Below, piece after piece: positions 437-10,231 of a stretch of 32,290 nucleotides of DNA. The notes under the pieces were generated by a model. That model had not been told where the DNA came from. It searched no databases and saw only the letters and a list, made by a program, of their open reading frames with translations. Position 1 is the first letter of the stretch, and each line of letters begins with the position of its first letter. The stretch is from positions 1 to 32,290 of the forward strand of contig CAMYON010000062.1 in NCBI GenBank assembly GCA_947260025.1. Reading direction: 5' to 3'. The translations under genes were made by a program, and so were the position numbers. This stretch comes from an uncultured Gammaproteobacteria bacterium (lineage in GTDB: Bacteria; Pseudomonadota; Gammaproteobacteria; GCA-001735895).

Positions 437-1390
437 ATGAAAATCCCGGATTTCGACGACGTTTGCGCGGCGCAGTCACGTATCAAGCCCTATGTCCACC
501 GCACCCCGATACTGACCTCGAGTCACCTCGATCAGCTATCCGGCGCAGAACTTTTCTTCAAGTGCGAAAACCTGCAAAAGGTGGGGGCGTTCAAGGCGCG
601 CGGCGCCGTCAATGCCGTGTTCGGCCTGTCCGATGCCGAAGCTGCCAGGGGCGTTGCCACGCATTCCTCCGGCAACCATGCCGGCGCGCTAAGTTACGCC
701 GCGATGCGGCGCGGCATCGAGGCGACCGTGGTGATGCCGCATAATGCGCCCGCAACCAAGAAAGCCGCGGTGCAAAGTTACGGCGGCAGAATAATCGAGT
801 GCGAGCCGACACAGGCGGCGCGCGAAGCAGCGCTGGCGCAGGTGGTCACAGAAACCGGCGCCGATGCGGTGCATCCTTACGACGATGTCCGGGTTATCGC
901 CGGGCAGGCCACCTGTGCACTGGAATTACATGAAGATGCCGGCAAACTGGATGCCGTGGTTGCCCCCATCGGCGGTGGCGGACTGATCTCGGGCACCTGT
1001 CTGAGCCTGTCGCAGCTATCTCCCGAAACCAGGATTTACGCGGCCGAACCGGCAAACGCCGACGATGCCTACCTGTCGTTCAACAAGGGTGAAATCGTCG
1101 AAAAGGATGCGCAACAATCGGTGGCGGATGGTCTCAAAACCAATCTCAAGCCCCGCACCTGGCATTTCGTTTCGAGCTATGTAACTGATATTCTGCTCGC
1201 CAGCGAAAGCGAAATACTGGATGCGATGTACCTGACCTGGGAGCGCATGAAAATTATTATCGAACCGTCTTCGGCGGTACCGCTGGCGGTCATGCTGAAA
1301 AACCGGGAGTTGTTTCGTGGTCAGCGCGTCGGCGTGATCATTACCGGCGGTAACGTCGATTTAAAAAATTGCCCCGGGTGTAAATCCTGA
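437..1390 (+). CDS. bhcB: Beta-hydroxyaspartate dehydratase (BhcB-like), serine racemase/threonine dehydratase fold
   Basis: This 317-aa fold-type II PLP enzyme most likely dehydrates 3-hydroxyaspartate to iminosuccinate in the cytosol. Visible are the PLP lysine in KVGAFKARGA (K53), the serine racemase-type SSGNHAGAL motif (S77-H81) that carries the second catalytic residue, and a tetraglycine phosphate-binding loop (PIGGGGLISG). The length matches serine racemase and hydroxyaspartate dehydratases. It lacks the ACT regulatory domain of biosynthetic threonine deaminase, arguing against IlvA. The ATG at 437 has a weak purine stretch upstream (AAGGTTGGCAG). A 21-bp gap separates it from a BhcC-like aldolase, the canonical partner that makes its substrate. 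The family also includes serine racemase and catabolic threonine dehydratase, so the specific call rests mainly on the neighbours. Confidence 0.7.
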   Translation: MKIPDFDDVCAAQSRIKPYVHRTPILTSSHLDQLSGAELFFKCENLQKVGAFKARGAVNAVFGLSDAEAARGVATHSSGNHAGALSYAAMRRGIEATVVMPHNAPATKKAAVQSYGGRIIECEPTQAAREAALAQVVTETGADAVHPYDDVRVIAGQATCALELHEDAGKLDAVVAPIGGGGLISGTCLSLSQLSPETRIYAAEPANADDAYLSFNKGEIVEKDAQQSVADGLKTNLKPRTWHFVSSYVTDILLASESEILDAMYLTWERMKIIIEPSSAVPLAVMLKNRELFRGQRVGVIITGGNVDLKNCPGCKS

Positions 1391-1411
1391 GGTCGCGGGT
1401 TCTGAACAAAG

Positions 1412-2560
1412 ATGAATGGGCTTTACGATAAATCGACCGTCGGTCTGAACATCCCGGCCGCGGTCGGCATGACGCTGGCTGATGTATGCACGCCGGCACT
1501 GATCATCGATCTCGACGCCTTCGAGGCCAACGTCGCTACGTTGCGCTCGCGCCTGCAGACGGCCGGGGTGCGCCTGCGCGCGCACGTCAAGACTCACAAA
1601 TCGGTCGATATCGCGGGCTACCAGATCGAGCAGGGCGGCGCCTGCGGTATCTGTTGTCAGAAAGTTGCCGAGGCCGAAGTCATGGTCGCCGGCGGAATCG
1701 GCGACGTGCTGGTTTCGAACCAGGTGACCGATCCCGGCAAAATCGACCGCCTTGCGCGGCTCGCGCTGAACGCCAGGCTGCTGGTTTGCGTCGATGATCC
1801 AACCAATGTCGACGACCTGTCGATGGCCGCACGACGTCACGGAGCCACGATCGAATGCCTGGTCGAAATCGATTGCGGCGCCGGACGCTGCGGCGTCGAG
1901 CCTGGTGCCGCCGCCGTCGTCATCGCGAGTAAAATTGCCTCCAGCAGCGGCCTCAAATTCGCCGGGCTGCAGGCCTACCAGGGCGCGGCGCAACATATCC
2001 GGAGTTTCGACGAACGCCGCAAAGCCCTCGACGAAGCTATCATGCAAACCCGCGATACGATCGATCAGTTGGCCGATGCCGGCCTGTCTTGTGATATCGT
2101 TGCCGGCGCCGGGACCGGGTCCTATCCCTTCGAGGCCAGTTCCGGTATCTACAATGAAATGCAGTGCGGGTCCTACATATTCATGGACGCGGATTACCGA
2201 CGAGTGCTCGATCAAAACGGCGAAGGTATTTCCGAATTCAGCAACAGCCTGTTCGTCTGGACCTCGATCATGTCGAAGACGCGCGCGCTGGAAGCAGTTT
2301 GCGACGCCGGCCTCAAGGTATTGTCGGCTGATTCGGGCCTGCCCGTGGTTTACGGCCGAGACGATGTCGAGTACATCTCGATTTCGGACGAACATGGTGT
2401 GCTGGCCGATCGGCACAATCGCCTGCGCCTGAACGACAAACTGAAGCTGATCCCGGGTCACTGCGATCCAACCTGCAACCTGCACGACTGGTATGTCGGC
2501 ATTCGCAACGACAGGGTCGAATGCCTGTGGCCGGTCAGCGCGCGCGGCATGGCTTTCTGA
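1412..2560 (+). CDS. bhcC: Beta-hydroxyaspartate aldolase (BhcC-like), DSD1/D-threonine aldolase family
   Basis: This 382-aa fold-type III PLP enzyme probably condenses glycine and glyoxylate to 3-hydroxyaspartate. The N-terminal alanine-racemase-like barrel carries the PLP lysine in HVKTHKS (K60). The C-terminal metal site reads PGHCDPTCNLHDWY with H350 and D352. The His-x-Asp pair is the arrangement known for the aldolase branch (D-threonine and 3-hydroxyaspartate aldolases), whereas the dehydratase branch (D-serine and D-threo-hydroxyaspartate dehydratase) uses His-x-Cys. It lies 21 bp after the bhcB-like gene and 20 bp before a small unknown gene, forming a three-gene rightward unit. D-threonine aldolase is the main alternative, but the dehydratase partner and the facing glyoxylate aminotransferase favour the beta-hydroxyaspartate role. 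Confidence 0.72.
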   Translation: MNGLYDKSTVGLNIPAAVGMTLADVCTPALIIDLDAFEANVATLRSRLQTAGVRLRAHVKTHKSVDIAGYQIEQGGACGICCQKVAEAEVMVAGGIGDVLVSNQVTDPGKIDRLARLALNARLLVCVDDPTNVDDLSMAARRHGATIECLVEIDCGAGRCGVEPGAAAVVIASKIASSSGLKFAGLQAYQGAAQHIRSFDERRKALDEAIMQTRDTIDQLADAGLSCDIVAGAGTGSYPFEASSGIYNEMQCGSYIFMDADYRRVLDQNGEGISEFSNSLFVWTSIMSKTRALEAVCDAGLKVLSADSGLPVVYGRDDVEYISISDEHGVLADRHNRLRLNDKLKLIPGHCDPTCNLHDWYVGIRNDRVECLWPVSARGMAF

Positions 2561-3060: not shown

Positions 3061-4329
3061 TTAACGACTGGCGAGATAGCTGCTCAAATCGTCCAGGATT
3101 TTATCCTTGTCGACCGGCGCGCCCATTTCGATCATCGCATCGGCGAAACGGCCGACGATGTCGGTGATCGCAGCGGGGGTCAGCTGGTTCAGAATCCCGA
3201 TCCGGACCTGGGTCGGCTCGGACAGGGTCGGCCAGATGGCAAAACCGCGCGCGCGGCAGTTACCGACCAGCTCCTTCTCCTTACCGGCGAGATCGGCGGG
3301 CAGGTTGCATACCACCAGGCTGGTCATGTTCGAAGTCACTTCGCAACCCATGGCTTCGACCGCGCTGCGCAGGCCCTTCTCGTAAAACGCGTAGTCGGCC
3401 GCCTTTTGCGCACGACCGTGCTGCAGCAACAGGCGCAGCGCCTCGTGGAACGAAGCCACCGCGTAGCCGGAATGCGTGCGGTGATAGGCCGCCGCCTCGA
3501 CGTCCTGGCCATCGTTGATACACCAGTGGCGCGCGTCGAGAATCGGGTTGTGCAGGTAGCTCGGGCAACCGCGCTGCTTGATCAGGTCGATGACCTTGTC
3601 GTTGAAGCTGATCGGTGCATAGGTCACCGGCAGACCGAGGATCCCTTTCTGCGGACAGGAAGCCCAGGTGGTTACCGCCGGGTAGTCATCGATATTGAAA
3701 TCGGTGATACCCAGGCTGGAAACACAGTCGATGATGCCCATGACGTCGTGCTTCGCGCAGGCGTCGTTGAAGCCCTGCAAATCGTTGATACGACCACTAC
3801 CGGTTTCCCAGTGCGCCATCACGGCCCACATCGGCTTGTGTTCGGCCAGCGCGGCCTCGACGACTTCACCGGTGACCGACTGGCCGTGCGGTACGTTGAC
3901 GGTGACGACATTTTCCGGCTTCGGATCGAGCGGGTTGGCCGCCAGCTCTTCATTGTTGGCGACGTGCATGCGCACGCTCAGGTCATCGATGCCGCTGAAG
4001 GTGCCGTTGACGAAGCAAACTACCTTGTCACCCTTGAGAATCGGCATGAACGCGGTGTCCAGCGCGCTCCATCCGGTGCCGCATACGGCATAGGTGTACA
4101 AATTGCTGGTGCCGAACACCTCGCGCAGCATGAACTTGGCTTCCTTCATTCCGCGCACGACGTCGGCCTGCATGTGATCCGCGACACCGGCCGCGGCGAA
4201 GCGCTCGAGTACGCGCGGATCGGTGTTGCCCGGGCCGGGGCCGGCCGCCAGCGTATCGGGGATTACTAGTTGTGGGAAAATTCCAAATTCCCCTTCGGTT
4301 TGGTAATCAATATCAGGTTGGGTTGACAT
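3061..4329 (-). CDS. bhcA: Class V glyoxylate aminotransferase, probable aspartate-glyoxylate aminotransferase (BhcA-like)
   Basis: This 422-aa fold-type I PLP enzyme of the alanine/serine/aspartate-glyoxylate aminotransferase group would convert glyoxylate plus an amino donor to glycine plus an oxo acid. Visible are the AAGPGPGNTDPRVL substrate-loop motif (28-41), the Asp that contacts the PLP ring nitrogen in IIDCVSSLG (D201), and the PLP lysine in SCPQKGILG (K228). The start is ATG 4329 (MSTQPDIDY), with GGAG about 12 bases upstream; longer in-frame extensions only read through the neighbouring gene. It is the last gene of a leftward operon headed by an IclR regulator. In the beta-hydroxyaspartate cycle, BhcA uses aspartate as donor and releases oxaloacetate. 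Alanine or serine as donor cannot be excluded from sequence. Confidence 0.68.
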   Translation of the reverse strand: MSTQPDIDYQTEGEFGIFPQLVIPDTLAAGPGPGNTDPRVLERFAAAGVADHMQADVVRGMKEAKFMLREVFGTSNLYTYAVCGTGWSALDTAFMPILKGDKVVCFVNGTFSGIDDLSVRMHVANNEELAANPLDPKPENVVTVNVPHGQSVTGEVVEAALAEHKPMWAVMAHWETGSGRINDLQGFNDACAKHDVMGIIDCVSSLGITDFNIDDYPAVTTWASCPQKGILGLPVTYAPISFNDKVIDLIKQRGCPSYLHNPILDARHWCINDGQDVEAAAYHRTHSGYAVASFHEALRLLLQHGRAQKAADYAFYEKGLRSAVEAMGCEVTSNMTSLVVCNLPADLAGKEKELVGNCRARGFAIWPTLSEPTQVRIGILNQLTPAAITDIVGRFADAMIEMGAPVDKDKILDDLSSYLASR

Positions 4330-4357: not shown

Positions 4358-4756
4358 TCATGGCATGGCCGCGGCGCCCGCGCGCGCGACAATACCGTCT
4401 TCATTCGCTTTCGCCCCGCTAATACCGATGGCGCCAACAGTTTCGCCCTCGTAGGTAAGCGGTTCACCGCCTTCCAGCGGCATGATTCCCGGCATTTCCA
4501 GGTAACCGGGCTCGCCGTTGTTGACGCGATCGGCAAACACGCTGGTCGGGCGTCGAAACAACAACGCGGCCTTCGCCTTCTTCACCGCCACATCGATGCT
4601 GCCGAGCTGCGCCCCTTCGCGCTGCAGGTACATCAGGTGGCCGCCGTCGTCGACGATCGCGATCACCATGTCCCAGCCGTTCTCGTCGGCAGACTGTTGC
4701 GCCGCTGCTGCGACCGCCTTTGCGGTTACCAGATCGATACAGTTTTTTCGTTTCAA
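4358..4756 (-). CDS. GlcG/HbpS-family (DUF336) protein
   Basis: A 132-aa protein with the hallmarks of the GlcG/HbpS heme-binding-like family: an N-terminal helix with AxAAAxxxA spacing, VIAIVDDGGHLMYLQREG, a KKAKAALLFRRPTS segment, and a C-terminal GExVGAIGISGA strand-loop. Length is typical. The start appears to be TTG at 4756, with GGAA-type purines just upstream; the nearby ATG is out of frame. It lies 21 bp after the IclR gene and 28 bp before the aminotransferase gene, all leftward. The E. coli homologue glcG sits in the glycolate operon beside malate synthase G, so association with glycolate/glyoxylate genes recurs, but its biochemical function there is not established. Heme binding is a family property, not something seen here. 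Confidence 0.75.
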   Translation of the reverse strand: MKRKNCIDLVTAKAVAAAAQQSADENGWDMVIAIVDDGGHLMYLQREGAQLGSIDVAVKKAKAALLFRRPTSVFADRVNNGEPGYLEMPGIMPLEGGEPLTYEGETVGAIGISGAKANEDGIVARAGAAAMP

Positions 4757-4777: not shown

Positions 4778-5620
4778 TCAGACTTTTACAGCGGGGATAC
4801 GCCCGCCCAGCTCACGCGTAATTTCGGCGGCGGTCTGGCGCACGGCGTTACCCATTTCGCCAAGACGACCGTCGACGATTCGCGCCTTCGGACCAGACAG
4901 TGAAATTGCCGCCAGTGCCTGGCCGTTTTCGTCAAAAATCGGCGCCGCCACGCAGCGCAATCCGACCGCATGCTCCTCGTCATCGAGTGCGTAACCCTGC
5001 TGCCTGACCTGCTTGAGCTCATCGCGCAGCGTGGCAGGGCTATCGATGGTGTGATCGGTGTACCTCGCCAGCCCGCGCTGCTGCAGTATGCGCGTCACCC
5101 GCTGTTCCGGCATGTTTGCCAACATCGCCTTGCCAACCCCGGACGCATGGATCGGCGAGCGGCTGCCGAGCCTGACGATCATGCGCATCACTTCCTGCGA
5201 TTCGACCTGGCTGATAAACACCACTTCGCCATCGTCGATGACGCCCAGGTTCACGGTTTCACCGCATTCGTCGACCAGCGCGTTCATATACGGTCTGGCG
5301 CTGGCGACGAAGTCGCGTCGCTTTAAAAAAGCGTTCCCGACGGTAAAGGCCTTCAGGCCGATAAACCACGACCCCTCGTCAGGATCCTGCTCGACAAAAT
5401 CGAGCTCCTCGAAGGTGCTGAGCAGGCGATGCACGGTCGCTGCCGGCATCCCCAGCTGGTAAGACAGGTCGGTCAGATGCATCCCCGTGTCCGATTCAGA
5501 CAGGCGCTCGAGCAGGGTCAGCGCGCGCGTCAAAGACTGATTTTTACCGTCGCGCGCGCGTGCTTTCCCGCCCGGGGGACGGCCTCGCTTTCGAGCGATA
5601 CTGGCTACCGTATTCGTCAT
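4778..5620 (-). CDS. bhcR: IclR-family transcriptional regulator (BhcR-like)
   Basis: This 280-aa regulator has a basic N-terminal tail (KRGRPPGGKARAR), an IclR-type winged helix (about residues 27-90, with LTDLSYQLGMPAATVHRLL as the recognition region) and a C-terminal effector domain (GETVNLGVIDDGEVVFISQ, then SRSPIHASGVGKAMLA and GLRCVAAPIFDENG). ATG 5620 is preferred over an upstream in-frame TTG at 5671, which would add residues unlike the family. No strong ribosome site is visible. It is the first gene of the leftward operon with the GlcG-like and aminotransferase genes. In Paracoccus the IclR protein BhcR controls the beta-hydroxyaspartate genes and responds to glyoxylate; the same role here is inferred from position. 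A candidate operator lies about 160 bp upstream. Confidence 0.75.
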   Translation of the reverse strand: MTNTVASIARKRGRPPGGKARARDGKNQSLTRALTLLERLSESDTGMHLTDLSYQLGMPAATVHRLLSTFEELDFVEQDPDEGSWFIGLKAFTVGNAFLKRRDFVASARPYMNALVDECGETVNLGVIDDGEVVFISQVESQEVMRMIVRLGSRSPIHASGVGKAMLANMPEQRVTRILQQRGLARYTDHTIDSPATLRDELKQVRQQGYALDDEEHAVGLRCVAAPIFDENGQALAAISLSGPKARIVDGRLGEMGNAVRQTAAEITRELGGRIPAVKV

Positions 5621-6048
5621 GACGCGCACACTAGCACCGAAATCTACCCGGAACCTGCTTGAACGCGACAATAATTAATTTAAAAATGCATTCCAAAATA
5701 TTTAACTTGCCTGCGAAATAAAAATCTAAGTCTTTGTTTTTAATATATTTAATTTCAAGATGCGCGATTATTTCATAATTTCCATAAAATGGAAATATTT
5801 TCCATGGGATATATAACCCTAACCCCGATGCAGTGTTGACCATGATCGTGACGCAGGCGCAGGACCCGGTTTTTATCCCCTGCCTGCGCAGGTATTGCCT
5901 ACCACCCGGGTCAAGAAACCTGATCAACAATAATCCCCAGGCCGGGTCAAAACCGCTTCAGTGTGATCCCCGTCCAAGAATTTTTCTTACAATTCAACAA
6001 CATTGAGCCATAATGTCAGATTAAACCTTTAATTTGCATGGAGACAGG
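5621..6048. other. 428-bp divergent control region, AT-rich in its left half
   Basis: This gap separates the leftward bhcR operon from the rightward reductase gene. Bases about 5665-5820 are strongly AT-rich compared with the GC-rich surroundings, as expected of a promoter zone. It contains the IclR-type operator at 5778-5805. Bases 5852-5892 can form a GC-rich hairpin (CGCAGG repeats facing CCTGCGCAGG). Two near copies of CCGGGTCAAxAACC lie at 5906-5920 and 5942-5954. A TACAAT at 5988-5993 could be a -10 for the rightward gene but lacks a convincing -35. I see no open frame worth calling and no riboswitch signature. Confidence 0.6.
5778..5805. promoter_or_regulatory. IclR-type operator with three alternating half-sites, probable BhcR binding site
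   Basis: Half-sites TTTCCAT (5779-5785), ATGGAAA (5789-5795) and TTTCCAT (5799-5805) alternate in orientation, each separated by 3 bases, so they repeat every 10 bp, one helical turn. The first pair extends to perfect 8-bp arms (5778-5785 and 5789-5796). The second pair, TGGAAATATTTTCCA, differs by one base from the published IclR-family palindrome TGGAAATNATTTCCA as I recall it. The site lies between the regulator gene and the divergent reductase gene. Which protein binds is inferred. Confidence 0.7.
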
Positions 6049-7008
6049 ATGCGGATTGCAGTTTATGGCAGCGGTGGTGTAGGCGGCTATTTCGGTGGTC
6101 GCCTGGCGCAGTTCGGCCAGGATGTGGTTTTCATTGCGCGAAACGAAACCCTGACGGCGCTGCGCACGGAGGGATTGAAGGTCGGCAGCATCGCCGGCGA
6201 CTTCGTTATCGACAAGATCCAGGTCACCAATAATCCGGCCGAGGTCGGTGTGGTCGACTACGTGCTGTGCTGCGTCAAGAGCTGGCAGGTCCCGGCCGCG
6301 GCCAGGGCGATGAAACCGATGGTAGGCCCCGACACGCTGGTTGCCCCGCTACAAAATGGCGTCGAAGCGCCTTACCAACTGGGCGAGGTGCTCGACCCGG
6401 CCAACGTACTCGGTGGACTATGCGCCATTGTCGCGTTCATGGCGGGCCCGGGGCACGTCAAACACAGCGGCGCAAACCCGCTGATACGCTTCGGTCACCT
6501 GGACAATCATGCCGATCCGCGGGTCAACACCCTGTCCGAGATTTTCAATCACTGCAGCGGCGTCAAATCGAGCATTCCGGACGATGTGCTGGTGGCGATG
6601 TGGCAGAAATTCATGCTGATTACGCCCTGGAGCGGGCTCGGCGCGGTCTCTCGCGCACCGCTTGGCGTTTTACTGGAGCAACCGGAAACGCGAGAACTGT
6701 TGATCCAGGCCACCGAGGAAATTTACCAGCTGGGACGCGCCCGGGAAATCAACCTGCCGGACGACAGCGTCGCGCGGACGATAAAGACCCTCGAGGATAT
6801 ACCGCCGAACTCGACCACGTCGATGCAGCGCGACCTGGTGCGCGGCAGGCCCTCGGAACTGGATGCCCAGAGCGGGGCCGTGGTACGCCTGGCCCACGAG
6901 GTCGATCTGGAGACGCCGGTAAATCGCTTCTTGCTATACAGCCTGCGCTCGCTCGAGCTGCGCGCACGCGGAGCGCTCAGCTTCAACCGGCGCTCATCAC
7001 CACGTTAG
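6049..7008 (+). CDS. PanE/ApbA-family NAD(P)H-dependent reductase (ketopantoate reductase-like), substrate unknown
   Basis: A 319-aa protein with an N-terminal Rossmann domain (MRIAVYGSGGVGGYFGG; NAD(P)-binding glycines 7-17), the LQNGVEAP loop (N103) and the C-terminal helical PanE domain. The catalytic lysine is present in WQKFML (K187), as is the glutamate in PSELDAQSG (E270). The two asparagines that bind ketopantoate in E. coli PanE (N180, N184) align with I191 and S195 here, so the natural substrate is probably not ketopantoate. ATG 6049 follows GGAGACAGG, a better start than an upstream TTG at 6034. It is divergent from the bhcR operon across the operator region and converges on malate synthase with a 19-bp gap. 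Reduction of a small oxo or imino acid from the glyoxylate pathway is possible but unproven. Confidence 0.72.
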   Translation: MRIAVYGSGGVGGYFGGRLAQFGQDVVFIARNETLTALRTEGLKVGSIAGDFVIDKIQVTNNPAEVGVVDYVLCCVKSWQVPAAARAMKPMVGPDTLVAPLQNGVEAPYQLGEVLDPANVLGGLCAIVAFMAGPGHVKHSGANPLIRFGHLDNHADPRVNTLSEIFNHCSGVKSSIPDDVLVAMWQKFMLITPWSGLGAVSRAPLGVLLEQPETRELLIQATEEIYQLGRAREINLPDDSVARTIKTLEDIPPNSTTSMQRDLVRGRPSELDAQSGAVVRLAHEVDLETPVNRFLLYSLRSLELRARGALSFNRRSSPR

Positions 7009-7027: not shown

Positions 7028-9214
7028 TCAGGAATCCTGGCGCGGCCTGCGGCTCAGAGCCTTGTATTCCCGGCGCCGCGGGTGCAGCACAAACTCGGTG
7101 TAACCGTTGGCAAACTCTCTGCCCTTGAACACCAGGTCGAGCGCGCCCTGGAAAGCGATACTGTTGTCGAAGTCCGGCGCCATGTCGCGATACTCGGGAT
7201 CGCCCGCGTTCTGACGATCGACAATTTCCGCCATTTTTTCGAATACCTGGTGCACCTGTTCATCGGTGGTGATTCCATGATGCAGCCAGTTGGCAATATG
7301 CTGACTCGAAATTCGCAGGGTGGCGCGATCTTCCATCAGGGATACGTCGGAAATATCGGGCACCTTGGAGCAGCCGACGCCCTGCTCGATCCAGCGCACC
7401 ACGTAACCGAGAATGCCCTGCGCGTTGTTTTCGAGCTCACGAATCAGGTCACCCTGGTTAATCTTGCGCCCGTCCAGCAACGGGATCGTCAGTATATCGT
7501 CGAGGCTGGCACGCGCGCAGTTGGCCAGCTGTTGCTGGCGCGCAATGACATCGACCTGGTGGTAATGCATCGCATGCAGGCAGGCGGCCACGGCCGAGGG
7601 CACCCATGCGGTGCTGGCGCCGGCGCGCGGATGCGCAATCTTCTGCTCCATCATCGCCGCCATGTTGTCAGGCGCGGCCCACATGCCCTTGCCAATTTGC
7701 CCGTGGCCGGGCAGCCCGGTTTCGAGCCCAATGTCGACATTCCAGTCCTCGTAGGCGAGCAGCCAGCGCGATGACTTGATTTCATTCTTCGGGATGACCG
7801 CGTCGGCTTCCATGCTGGTATGGATCTCGTCGCCGGTACGGTCGAGAAAACCGGTATTAATGAACACCACGCGATCGCTGGCGACCCGGATACATTCTTT
7901 CAGGTTGACCGTGGTGCGGCGCTCCTCGTCCATGATGCCGATCTTGAGGGCGCCGGCCTCGATACCGAGCGCATCCTCGACCATGGCAAACAGCTGCACC
8001 GCGGCCGCGACTTCCTCCGGCCCGTGCATCTTGGGTTTGACGATATAGACGCTGCCGGTACGGCTGTTGCTGAACTCGCCGTTACCGAGTAAATCGTGCT
8101 TGGCGGCGAGCGCGGTGACCATCGCGTCGAGAAAAGTTTCCGGCACTTCCTCGCCGTCACAGGTGACCGCGTCGGTGTACATATGGGTGCCTACATTGCG
8201 CACGAACATCAGGCTGCGCCCCGGCAGTCGAAAACTCTCGCCACGCGGCGACAGATACTCGGGATCGGGATTCAGGCTGCGCTCCAGCGCCTCGTCGCCA
8301 CGCATCACCGTGGTCTTTAGATCGCCCTTCATCAGGCCCAGCCAGTTGCGGTAAACCCGTACCTTGTCTTCCGCGTCGACCGCGGCCACCGAGTCCTCGC
8401 AATCCATGATGGTGGTAATCGCCGACTCGATGCGCACGTCGTAGATATTGGCCAGATCGCCCTGGCCGATGTAAAAGCCCTCGCCGATCAAAAGTTCGAT
8501 GTGCAGGTTGTTGTGCCGAAACAGGATCGCGCTGGGCTCGTTTGGATCACCGCGGTATCCGGCGAAACATTCGCGCCAGCCGAGCTCGGTTTTACTGCCG
8601 TCTCCCATCACCGCGACCAGTTTGCCCGAGGTCACCTGGTAGCGAATCACGTAGCTGTGACTGCCGACCGCGAGCGGCACCGCCTGGTCGAGAAAATCGC
8701 GCGCGTAGCGAATAACCTGCTGACCGCGTACCGGGTTGTATTTCGCGGTTTTTTTGCAGCCCTCGACCTCGAGAATGATATCGGTACCATAAAGCGCATC
8801 GTAGAGGCTGTACCAGCGGGCATTGGCCGCGTTGAGGGCATAACGCGCGTTGTCTACCGGCACCACGAGTTGCGGACCGGCAATGACGCCTATCTCGTCG
8901 TCGACGTTCGGCGTGGTGACCTGAAATTCTCCGCCCTCCGGCACCAGGTAACCGATTTCCTCGAGATATGCCTTGTACTCGGCGGCATCGATCTGTCCGA
9001 AATGGTTCTTGTGCCAGGCGTCGAGTTTGGCCTGGATATCGTCTCGCAGCTGCAGCAGGCGACGGTTATCGGGACCCATTTTCTGGTTGATGTCGGCAAA
9101 GGCCTGCCAGAACCGGGCGCTATCGACGCCAGTCCCGGGCGCTATATCTTTTTCTACTAGTTCGTACAGGGCACGGTCGACGCTAAGACCGCTGATTTCA
9201 ACTCGGCTGCTCAT
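7028..9214 (-). CDS. glcB: Malate synthase G
   Basis: This 728-aa cytosolic enzyme condenses glyoxylate with acetyl-CoA to malate. Its length matches malate synthase G (E. coli 723 aa) rather than the shorter malate synthase A. Signatures include [18 protein letters not shown], the [18 protein letters not shown] segment, and [20 protein letters not shown] followed by [11 protein letters not shown]. The start [10 protein letters not shown] has GGAAG on the coding strand about 10 bases upstream. It is convergent with the PanE-like gene, so it is controlled separately from the promoter at 9215 onward. It offers a second fate for glyoxylate beside the beta-hydroxyaspartate genes. No copy of the bhcR-type operator is visible upstream of it. 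Confidence 0.95.
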
Positions 9215-9340: not shown

Positions 9341-10231
9341 TTAAACACTCTGGGGCATTGCTACCGCCTTGAAACGGCGCTGCCTGAGCGCCCATACGGT
9401 GTTCAGTGCGAGGGTCGATAACACGATAGAACCGCCGATCAGGGTATAGATACCGGGTTTTTCACCAAGCGCCAGCCACACCCAGACCGGCCCCAGCACC
9501 GATTCCAGCAACAATAGCAATCCGACCTCGGGCGCCGGAATATAGCGCGGTCCGATAAACATCAGCGCGCTGCCGAGCGGCAGCATGTAGATGCCCATGA
9601 TCAGCAAATAGCCCAGGTCGGATTGCGTTATCGAAAACGGCGCGGCCAGCGGCAATACCAGCAAAGCGGTCAGGATGCCGCTACAGGAGATCGCCGCAAT
9701 GGTCGAGGCGTCCGGAAAGCGGCGCACGAAACTGAAACCGCAGGCAAGAAAAAAGGAGCCCAGCAGCGCGACCATATCGCCGAGACGGCTGCTCGCATTA
9801 TCGTCGCTACCCGTTGCGATGACGGCAATGCCGAACGCCACCAGGCCGATCGCGATCAGCGTGCGGCGTTCGATTTTCTCGTTTAACAGCACGCGACTGA
9901 TGATGGCCGCGAACAGGGGGGTCGTGCTGAGGATGATCAGGGTATTGGCAACGCTGGTATGGGTGATCGCAAAAATGAACGAAATCGTGCCCAGCGAGTA
10001 GGCGACGACCTTTAACAGCGCGGCGCCCTTCAGGGTTTTATATTGCTGCCAGACACGATTCGGGCAGGTAAAACCGAGCACCAGCCACATGCCGAACGAC
10101 AGCAATAGCGCACGCCAGAAAATCATGGTCCAGTGGTCGGCGACGATAAGACGCGTCAGCAGGCCGTCCGGTGAAATGATCAGGACGCCGCAGGCCGTGA
10201 TCAGCAAGCCTTTTGCATGAGTCGATAGCAT
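9341..10231 (-). CDS. EamA-domain (DMT superfamily) membrane transporter
   Basis: A 296-aa inner-membrane protein of about ten hydrophobic segments in two EamA repeats. The first repeat includes FWRALLLSFGMWLVLGF and the second begins near LGDMVALLGSFFLACGFSF. The conserved N-terminal pattern (GVLIISPDGLLTRL) and the RVLLNEKIERRTLIAIGLVAFGIAVI segment that closes the first repeat are typical of drug/metabolite exporters of this superfamily. The substrate cannot be read from sequence; members export amino acids, nucleosides and other metabolites. It is divergent from the ThDP-enzyme gene across 233 bp and lies 126 bp downstream of the malate synthase start in the same direction. That makes it an upstream gene on the same strand, without a visible terminator between them. 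Confidence 0.85.
   Translation of the reverse strand: MLSTHAKGLLITACGVLIISPDGLLTRLIVADHWTMIFWRALLLSFGMWLVLGFTCPNRVWQQYKTLKGAALLKVVAYSLGTISFIFAITHTSVANTLIILSTTPLFAAIISRVLLNEKIERRTLIAIGLVAFGIAVIATGSDDNASSRLGDMVALLGSFFLACGFSFVRRFPDASTIAAISCSGILTALLVLPLAAPFSITQSDLGYLLIMGIYMLPLGSALMFIGPRYIPAPEVGLLLLLESVLGPVWVWLALGEKPGIYTLIGGSIVLSTLALNTVWALRQRRFKAVAMPQSV

Follow-up and report, generated by a model that had tools for sequence, protein, structure and literature searches.

The window is the whole of the 32,290-nucleotide stretch analysed here, contig 62 of a 3.59-Mb genome assembly (94% complete) from an uncultured gammaproteobacterium. It carries a glyoxylate island, in which the following features were located.

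437-1390, plus strand: BhcB-like dehydratase of the BhcD-less type (542 bits, cut-off 550)
1412-2560, plus strand: BhcC-like aldolase of the BhcD-less type (609 bits, cut-off 690)
3061-4329, minus strand: AT5, a class-V AGT/SGAT-like glyoxylate aminotransferase, the constant partner of the reductase and not BhcA
4358-4756, minus strand: HbpS/GlcG-like protein (PF03928), found in only some congener loci
4778-5620, minus strand: BhcR, IclR-family regulator (NF045644, 353.9 bits, cut-off 350); start predicted, reading frame open to 5671
5790-5804, no strand assigned: perfect IclR-type palindrome TGGAAATATTTTCCA, putative BhcR operator by its resemblance to the IclR box
5986-6014, plus strand: promoter-like block CTTACA-17-CATAAT, kept 5′ of the reductase gene in most orthologous loci
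6049-7008, plus strand: PanE/ApbA-family reductase of 319 residues, assigned from domains, fold and orthologue alignment
7028-9214, minus strand: malate synthase G, convergent neighbour of the reductase, lost in some congeners
9341-10231, minus strand: EamA-family transporter, conserved in the locus

The reductase gene starts at an ATG (6049) that has GGAG directly 5′ and is kept in the orthologues, and its stop ends at 7008; an alternative in-frame TTG lies at 6034. The protein exceeds the curated cut-offs of Pfam ApbA (PF02558, 124 bits) and ApbA_C (PF08546, 95 bits). It is also above the cut-offs of two NCBIfam models that carry the name 2-dehydropantoate 2-reductase, TIGR00745 (248 bits against 141) and NF005091 (273 bits against 252). 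The AlphaFold2 model (mean pLDDT 87.5) matches ketopantoate reductases (KPRs) over its full length, the top Foldseek matches all being KPR-family, and it matches D-mandelate dehydrogenases of the KPR fold as well. The gene is thus genuine and intact and encodes the full KPR fold. Lys-187, Glu-270 and Asn-103 are invariant in 23 orthologues and Ser-258 is nearly so; the NAD(P) motif is also present. Retention of the catalytic Lys and Glu had been claimed in the initial annotation and is upheld by the alignment. The PanE/ApbA KPRs of E. coli (1KS9/2OFP), T. kodakarensis (5HWS) and R. eutropha (3HWR) share with the reductase both Pfam domains, the full-length fold, the catalytic Lys and Glu, the NAD(P) motif, Asn-103 and Ser-258. 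We tentatively regard the protein as a soluble NAD(P)H-dependent 2-oxoacid reductase with a Rossmann and a helical domain, in which Lys-187 would serve as the general acid; its substrate we infer from what follows.

The substrate pocket differs from that of E. coli PanE. The same annotation had reported that two ketopantoate-binding asparagines are replaced by Ile and Ser, and this holds across the orthologues: the position of E. coli PanE Asn-180 is Ile-191 in 22 of 23, and that of Asn-184 is Ser-195 in all 23. Two more pocket asparagines are also replaced, Asn-194 by Leu-205 (Leu, Ile or Val among the orthologues) and Asn-241 by Ser-255, equivalences that we place by counting from the Lys-176/Lys-187 and Ser-244/Ser-258 anchors along the E. 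coli sequence. In E. coli PanE, Asn-98 and Lys-176 contact the 2-oxo group, Asn-184 and Ser-244 the carboxylate, and Asn-194 and Asn-241 the 4-hydroxyl of ketopantoate (PMC10127515); Asn-180 contacts the α-hydroxyl (PMC3478992). Mapped onto the reductase, these published contacts show that the general 2-oxoacid machinery has been retained and that the residues holding the 4-hydroxyl of ketopantoate have been altered. The KPR-like protein 2QYT of P. gingivalis (29% identity) has the same pocket pattern beyond the catalytic Lys, with Ile at the fourth position from it and a P-I/L-G motif; it is a structural-genomics entry for which we know of no assay, so the likeness cannot decide the substrate. 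Other gammaproteobacterial families have homologues (47-52% identity) with Ile/Val at 191 and Gly/Ser at 195, whose genes adjoin cinA and an lspA-like gene, or polA, far from bhc genes. Since the same altered pocket occurs away from bhc genes, the missing asparagines do not point to iminosuccinate; the pocket residues by themselves cannot name the substrate.

Reduction of 2-oxoacids other than ketopantoate by enzymes of this fold is established. The D-mandelate dehydrogenases 3WFI/5X20 and 8WL1 have the fold of the reductase and are recognised 2-hydroxyacid dehydrogenases, not KPRs (Wada 2008 and Chambellon 2009, as cited in PMC4353338); they differ from it in sequence (around 22% identity) and in acting on bulky oxoacids. 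KPR-fold enzymes of L. lactis and E. faecalis that reduce other 2-oxoacids are likewise cited in PMC4353338. If the gene were that of an ordinary PanE, a ketopantoate reductase, relocated into the glyoxylate island, the passing of both 2-dehydropantoate 2-reductase models would be accounted for. This would also suit four outgroup genomes (G120, G243, G345 and G096) in which panB is present and the sole strong KPR (PF02558) match is a homologue whose pocket is similar. Set against this are the replacement of all four pocket asparagines of E. coli PanE (PMC10127515, PMC3478992) and the presence of panB in congeners G004, G010, G015, G016 and G018, where the intact reductase is absent. A KPR paralogue with the canonical Asn pair (KPR3) is moreover widespread, and the distribution of the reductase follows AT5, not panB; its gene is tied to a glyoxylate aminotransferase and not, as in the PanE/ApbA KPRs, to pan genes. 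IlvC can also supply ketopantoate reduction in other bacteria, Corynebacterium for example (as cited in PMC4353338), so in the four outgroup genomes either the reductase subfamily reduces ketopantoate or IlvC does. We consider the relocated PanE unlikely. The earlier view that the substrate is probably not ketopantoate is supported by the altered pocket; the four genomes with panB and only an altered-pocket KPR make that inference unsafe, and a non-ketopantoate substrate is plausible but not secure.

The reductase was previously described as divergent from bhcR across a shared operator. The divergence stands, and the sharing is only partly shown because the palindrome lies 245 bp from the reductase ATG (170 bp from the likely start of bhcR) and the reductase has a conserved promoter-like block of its own; its control by BhcR is therefore only putative. 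The palindrome at 5790-5804 is the only exact match in the 32-kb window, where four matches with up to two mismatches were found against 0.8 expected; exact or near copies occupy the same place in congeners, exact in several. BhcR of Paracoccus regulates the bhc genes, and its proposed site there is a palindrome lying upstream of bhcA (PMC11323563). Two promoter-like sites were found against 1.0 expected in shuffles, so that the block at 5986-6014 is identified mainly by its conservation. In three loci that are missing bhcR (L070, L071 and L073), the place of the IclR box in the AT5-reductase intergenic region is taken by a different conserved block, CTATGTCAGnnTCGACA, which suggests another regulator there.

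We note that the aminotransferase at the place expected for bhcA is not BhcA, a point overlooked in the initial annotation: AT5 scores 55 bits on the BhcA model NF045640 (cut-off 650), and the true BhcA of G011 scores 719. AT5 matches no NCBIfam equivalog and no Pfam family at an E-value of 0.001. The family is well conserved and occurs in serine-cycle clusters of Rhodobacteraceae and methanotrophs, and its nearest solved relatives are alanine/serine-glyoxylate-type aminotransferases. In Rhodobacteraceae (Leisingera and others) the AT5 orthologue (around 70% identity) is the only aminotransferase in a serine-cycle cluster with malate-CoA ligase, a CitE-like lyase, glyoxylate/hydroxypyruvate reductase, PEP carboxylase, glycerate kinase and SHMT. 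These relatives, together with its position as the sole aminotransferase in such clusters, make serine-glyoxylate aminotransferase the most likely assignment, serine being the predicted amino donor; we know of no assayed member. The serine-cycle locus of Methylobacter also contains an SgaA/BhcA-like enzyme, and the serine-glyoxylate enzyme of that organism is therefore not necessarily AT5. A role as ureidoglycine-glyoxylate aminotransferase, prompted by similarity to PucG and by purine genes adjoining in congeners, is possible but not preferred, as AT5 also occurs in serine-cycle clusters without purine genes. In four Methylobacter loci (L122, L123, L147 and L164) AT5 lies directly downstream of oadAB, which is also in the island of the window; a functional link between oxaloacetate decarboxylase and AT5 is therefore possible.

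The relation between AT5 and the reductase was followed through 31 genomes of the genus, mostly incomplete metagenome assemblies. Both genes occur in 22 genomes, AT5 only in three, the reductase only in one and neither in five (Fisher p = 0.0018, ignoring kinship), so that 22 of the 25 AT5-bearing genomes have the reductase. The divergent AT5-reductase pair lies on one contig in 20 genomes. The pairing persists where bhcR, glcB or bhcBC is absent; in G011, G012 and G021 the two genes are directly divergent with no bhcR between them. Against a partnership, G016 keeps AT5 without the reductase, and G015 keeps AT5 with only a remnant of it. G015 retains glcB, bhcR, glcG and AT5 and no bhc enzymes, and the decayed, stop-ridden remnant (L184, 6953-7459, minus strand) lies between glcB and bhcR. 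Separately, G006 has two copies of the reductase-bhcR-AT5 locus (on C385 and C2), which reflect duplication or strain mixture. On balance the reductase is probably the partner of AT5 and not a substitute for BhcD.

Substitution for BhcD had been the leading proposal: with bhcD lacking nearby, the reductase would convert the iminosuccinate formed by BhcB to aspartate and so close the β-hydroxyaspartate cycle. The lack of bhcD is borne out and extends to the whole 94%-complete assembly, which holds two OCD-family genes in all, neither of them BhcD. One is EutC (528 bits, cut-off 472) and the other is similar to pyrroline-2-carboxylate reductase; the two are located in an ectoine cluster and score 189 and 125 bits on the BhcD model (cut-off 500). 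BhcD (NF045643) resembles the reductase in being NAD(P)H-dependent and in occurring in β-hydroxyaspartate loci of the same genus. It differs in belonging to the ornithine-cyclodeaminase/mu-crystallin family, an unrelated domain, and the reductase matches only KPR-family and G3P-dehydrogenase-type models, outside the BhcD family (NF045643/PF02423). The reductase is found in every reasonably complete genome with BhcD-less BhcC and shares a contig with bhcC in ten, as a substitute might.

The wider distribution argues the other way. BhcD scores above the cut-off in 8 of the 31 genomes, the intact loci being canonical bhcR-bhcABCD, and four of these (G011, G012, G013 and G021) also have the reductase. 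In G021 the reductase and bhcD are 1.5 kb apart, within a 6-kb stretch ordered glcB, reductase, AT5, bhcD. Conversely, the reductase is present without BhcB, BhcC or BhcD in G024 and G027; in G002, G029 and G030 it occurs with BhcB and without BhcC. Four genomes (G004, G010, G016 and G018) have the canonical bhc set without the reductase. The BhcD-less kind of bhcC is found in 14 of the 31 (593-618 bits where complete, cut-off 690). We note that BhcB and BhcC of the window (437-2560) score just below the curated cut-offs, and that this type never occurs with its own bhcD in the genus. In the reductase tree, G008, G024, G027, G011 and G012 fall outside one nested clade (98/99 support) to which all genomes in the tree with BhcD-less bhcBC belong, and the basal loci are without that type; the most parsimonious reading is that the reductase was present in the locus earlier than the BhcD-less bhcBC. 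Nor is regeneration of aspartate obviously needed, because the aminotransferase beside the reductase is not BhcA, which uses aspartate. On gene co-presence and the tree across the 31 congeners, and with the altered pocket occurring away from bhc genes, substitution for BhcD was dropped as the leading reading; such a role is unlikely, and the full proposal of closing the cycle through iminosuccinate is very improbable.

The family, fold, catalytic residues and pocket changes of the reductase are thus established, as are its genomic tie to AT5 and its independence from BhcD; the description as an altered-pocket KPR-family enzyme belonging to a glyoxylate island is sustained. AT5 would transfer the amino group of serine to glyoxylate, yielding glycine and hydroxypyruvate, and the reductase would clear the oxoacid produced by AT5, reducing hydroxypyruvate to D-glycerate. 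In genomes that have BhcC and BhcB, glycine and glyoxylate would feed these enzymes. The best explanation we can offer, held tentatively, is a 2-oxoacid reductase of the glyoxylate island that serves AT5, most plausibly by this reaction; hydroxypyruvate in particular is a possible substrate that we propose with somewhat greater reserve. It is proposed mainly because the reductase and hydroxypyruvate reductase never share an AT5 locus: among 80 AT5 loci the former was found in 16, the latter in 24 and both in none. G024 and G027 have AT5 and the reductase without a close orthologue of the serine-cycle hydroxypyruvate reductase. Such an orthologue is, however, found elsewhere in the genome of the window (on C28, 77% identical to an AT5-locus copy) and likewise in most congeners. 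A second enzyme of this kind would be redundant, which counts against hydroxypyruvate, and simple non-orthologous replacement of the serine-cycle enzyme is weakened. Our paper searches gave no link between ketopantoate-reductase-family enzymes and serine-glyoxylate aminotransferase or hydroxypyruvate reductase.

The surroundings of the gene, which include malate synthase G, OadAB and a glyoxylate-linked regulator, would also suit another oxoacid of the island, and KPR-fold enzymes acting on other 2-oxoacids are known. The reductase might then act on oxaloacetate (giving D-malate), glyoxylate (giving glycolate) or tartronate semialdehyde (giving glycerate). Reducing glyoxylate would waste carbon assimilated elsewhere in the island. 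Tartronate semialdehyde, one of the substrates first suggested, has no evident source here, as the ThDP enzyme close by differs from the glyoxylate-carboligase type: it retains the usual Glu (RNEGGAA), unlike glyoxylate carboligase, which is absent among its best 25 NCBIfam matches. The idea of a supply through this enzyme was dropped, which weakens tartronate semialdehyde as a substrate, and as a group these other oxoacids are a doubtful choice that we nonetheless take seriously.

Reduction of hydroxypyruvate in the service of AT5 would also fit a linear, BhcD-less β-hydroxyaspartate route. AT5 would make glycine from glyoxylate, its amino donor being serine and not aspartate. From glycine and glyoxylate, BhcC and BhcB of the BhcD-less type would form oxaloacetate and ammonia, iminosuccinate hydrolysing spontaneously, and the reductase would return hydroxypyruvate to central metabolism as D-glycerate. 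Beyond bhcBC, in six congener loci (L092, L093, L101, L104, L105 and L107), the flank corresponding to the left of bhcB in the window carries purine catabolism genes: xanthine dehydrogenase (xdhA, xdhB), hydroxyisourate hydrolase, OHCU decarboxylase and PuuE allantoinase. Their place beside the island makes purine breakdown a plausible source of glyoxylate, and the linear route is possibly fed by it. The complete route is speculative and, as a whole, rather unlikely; as a mode of glyoxylate assimilation it would differ from the β-hydroxyaspartate cycle described in Paracoccus (2019 Nature paper, as cited in PMC11166783).

The finding on the reductase itself is modest, and the BhcD-less linear route is the better and more novel lead; the comparison points to bhcBC loci that are without BhcA as well as BhcD. 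Confirmation of hydroxypyruvate or another oxoacid as the substrate would mean reassigning a subfamily whose present annotation is ketopantoate reductase, and would account for part of how uncultured Gammaproteobacteria assimilate glyoxylate.
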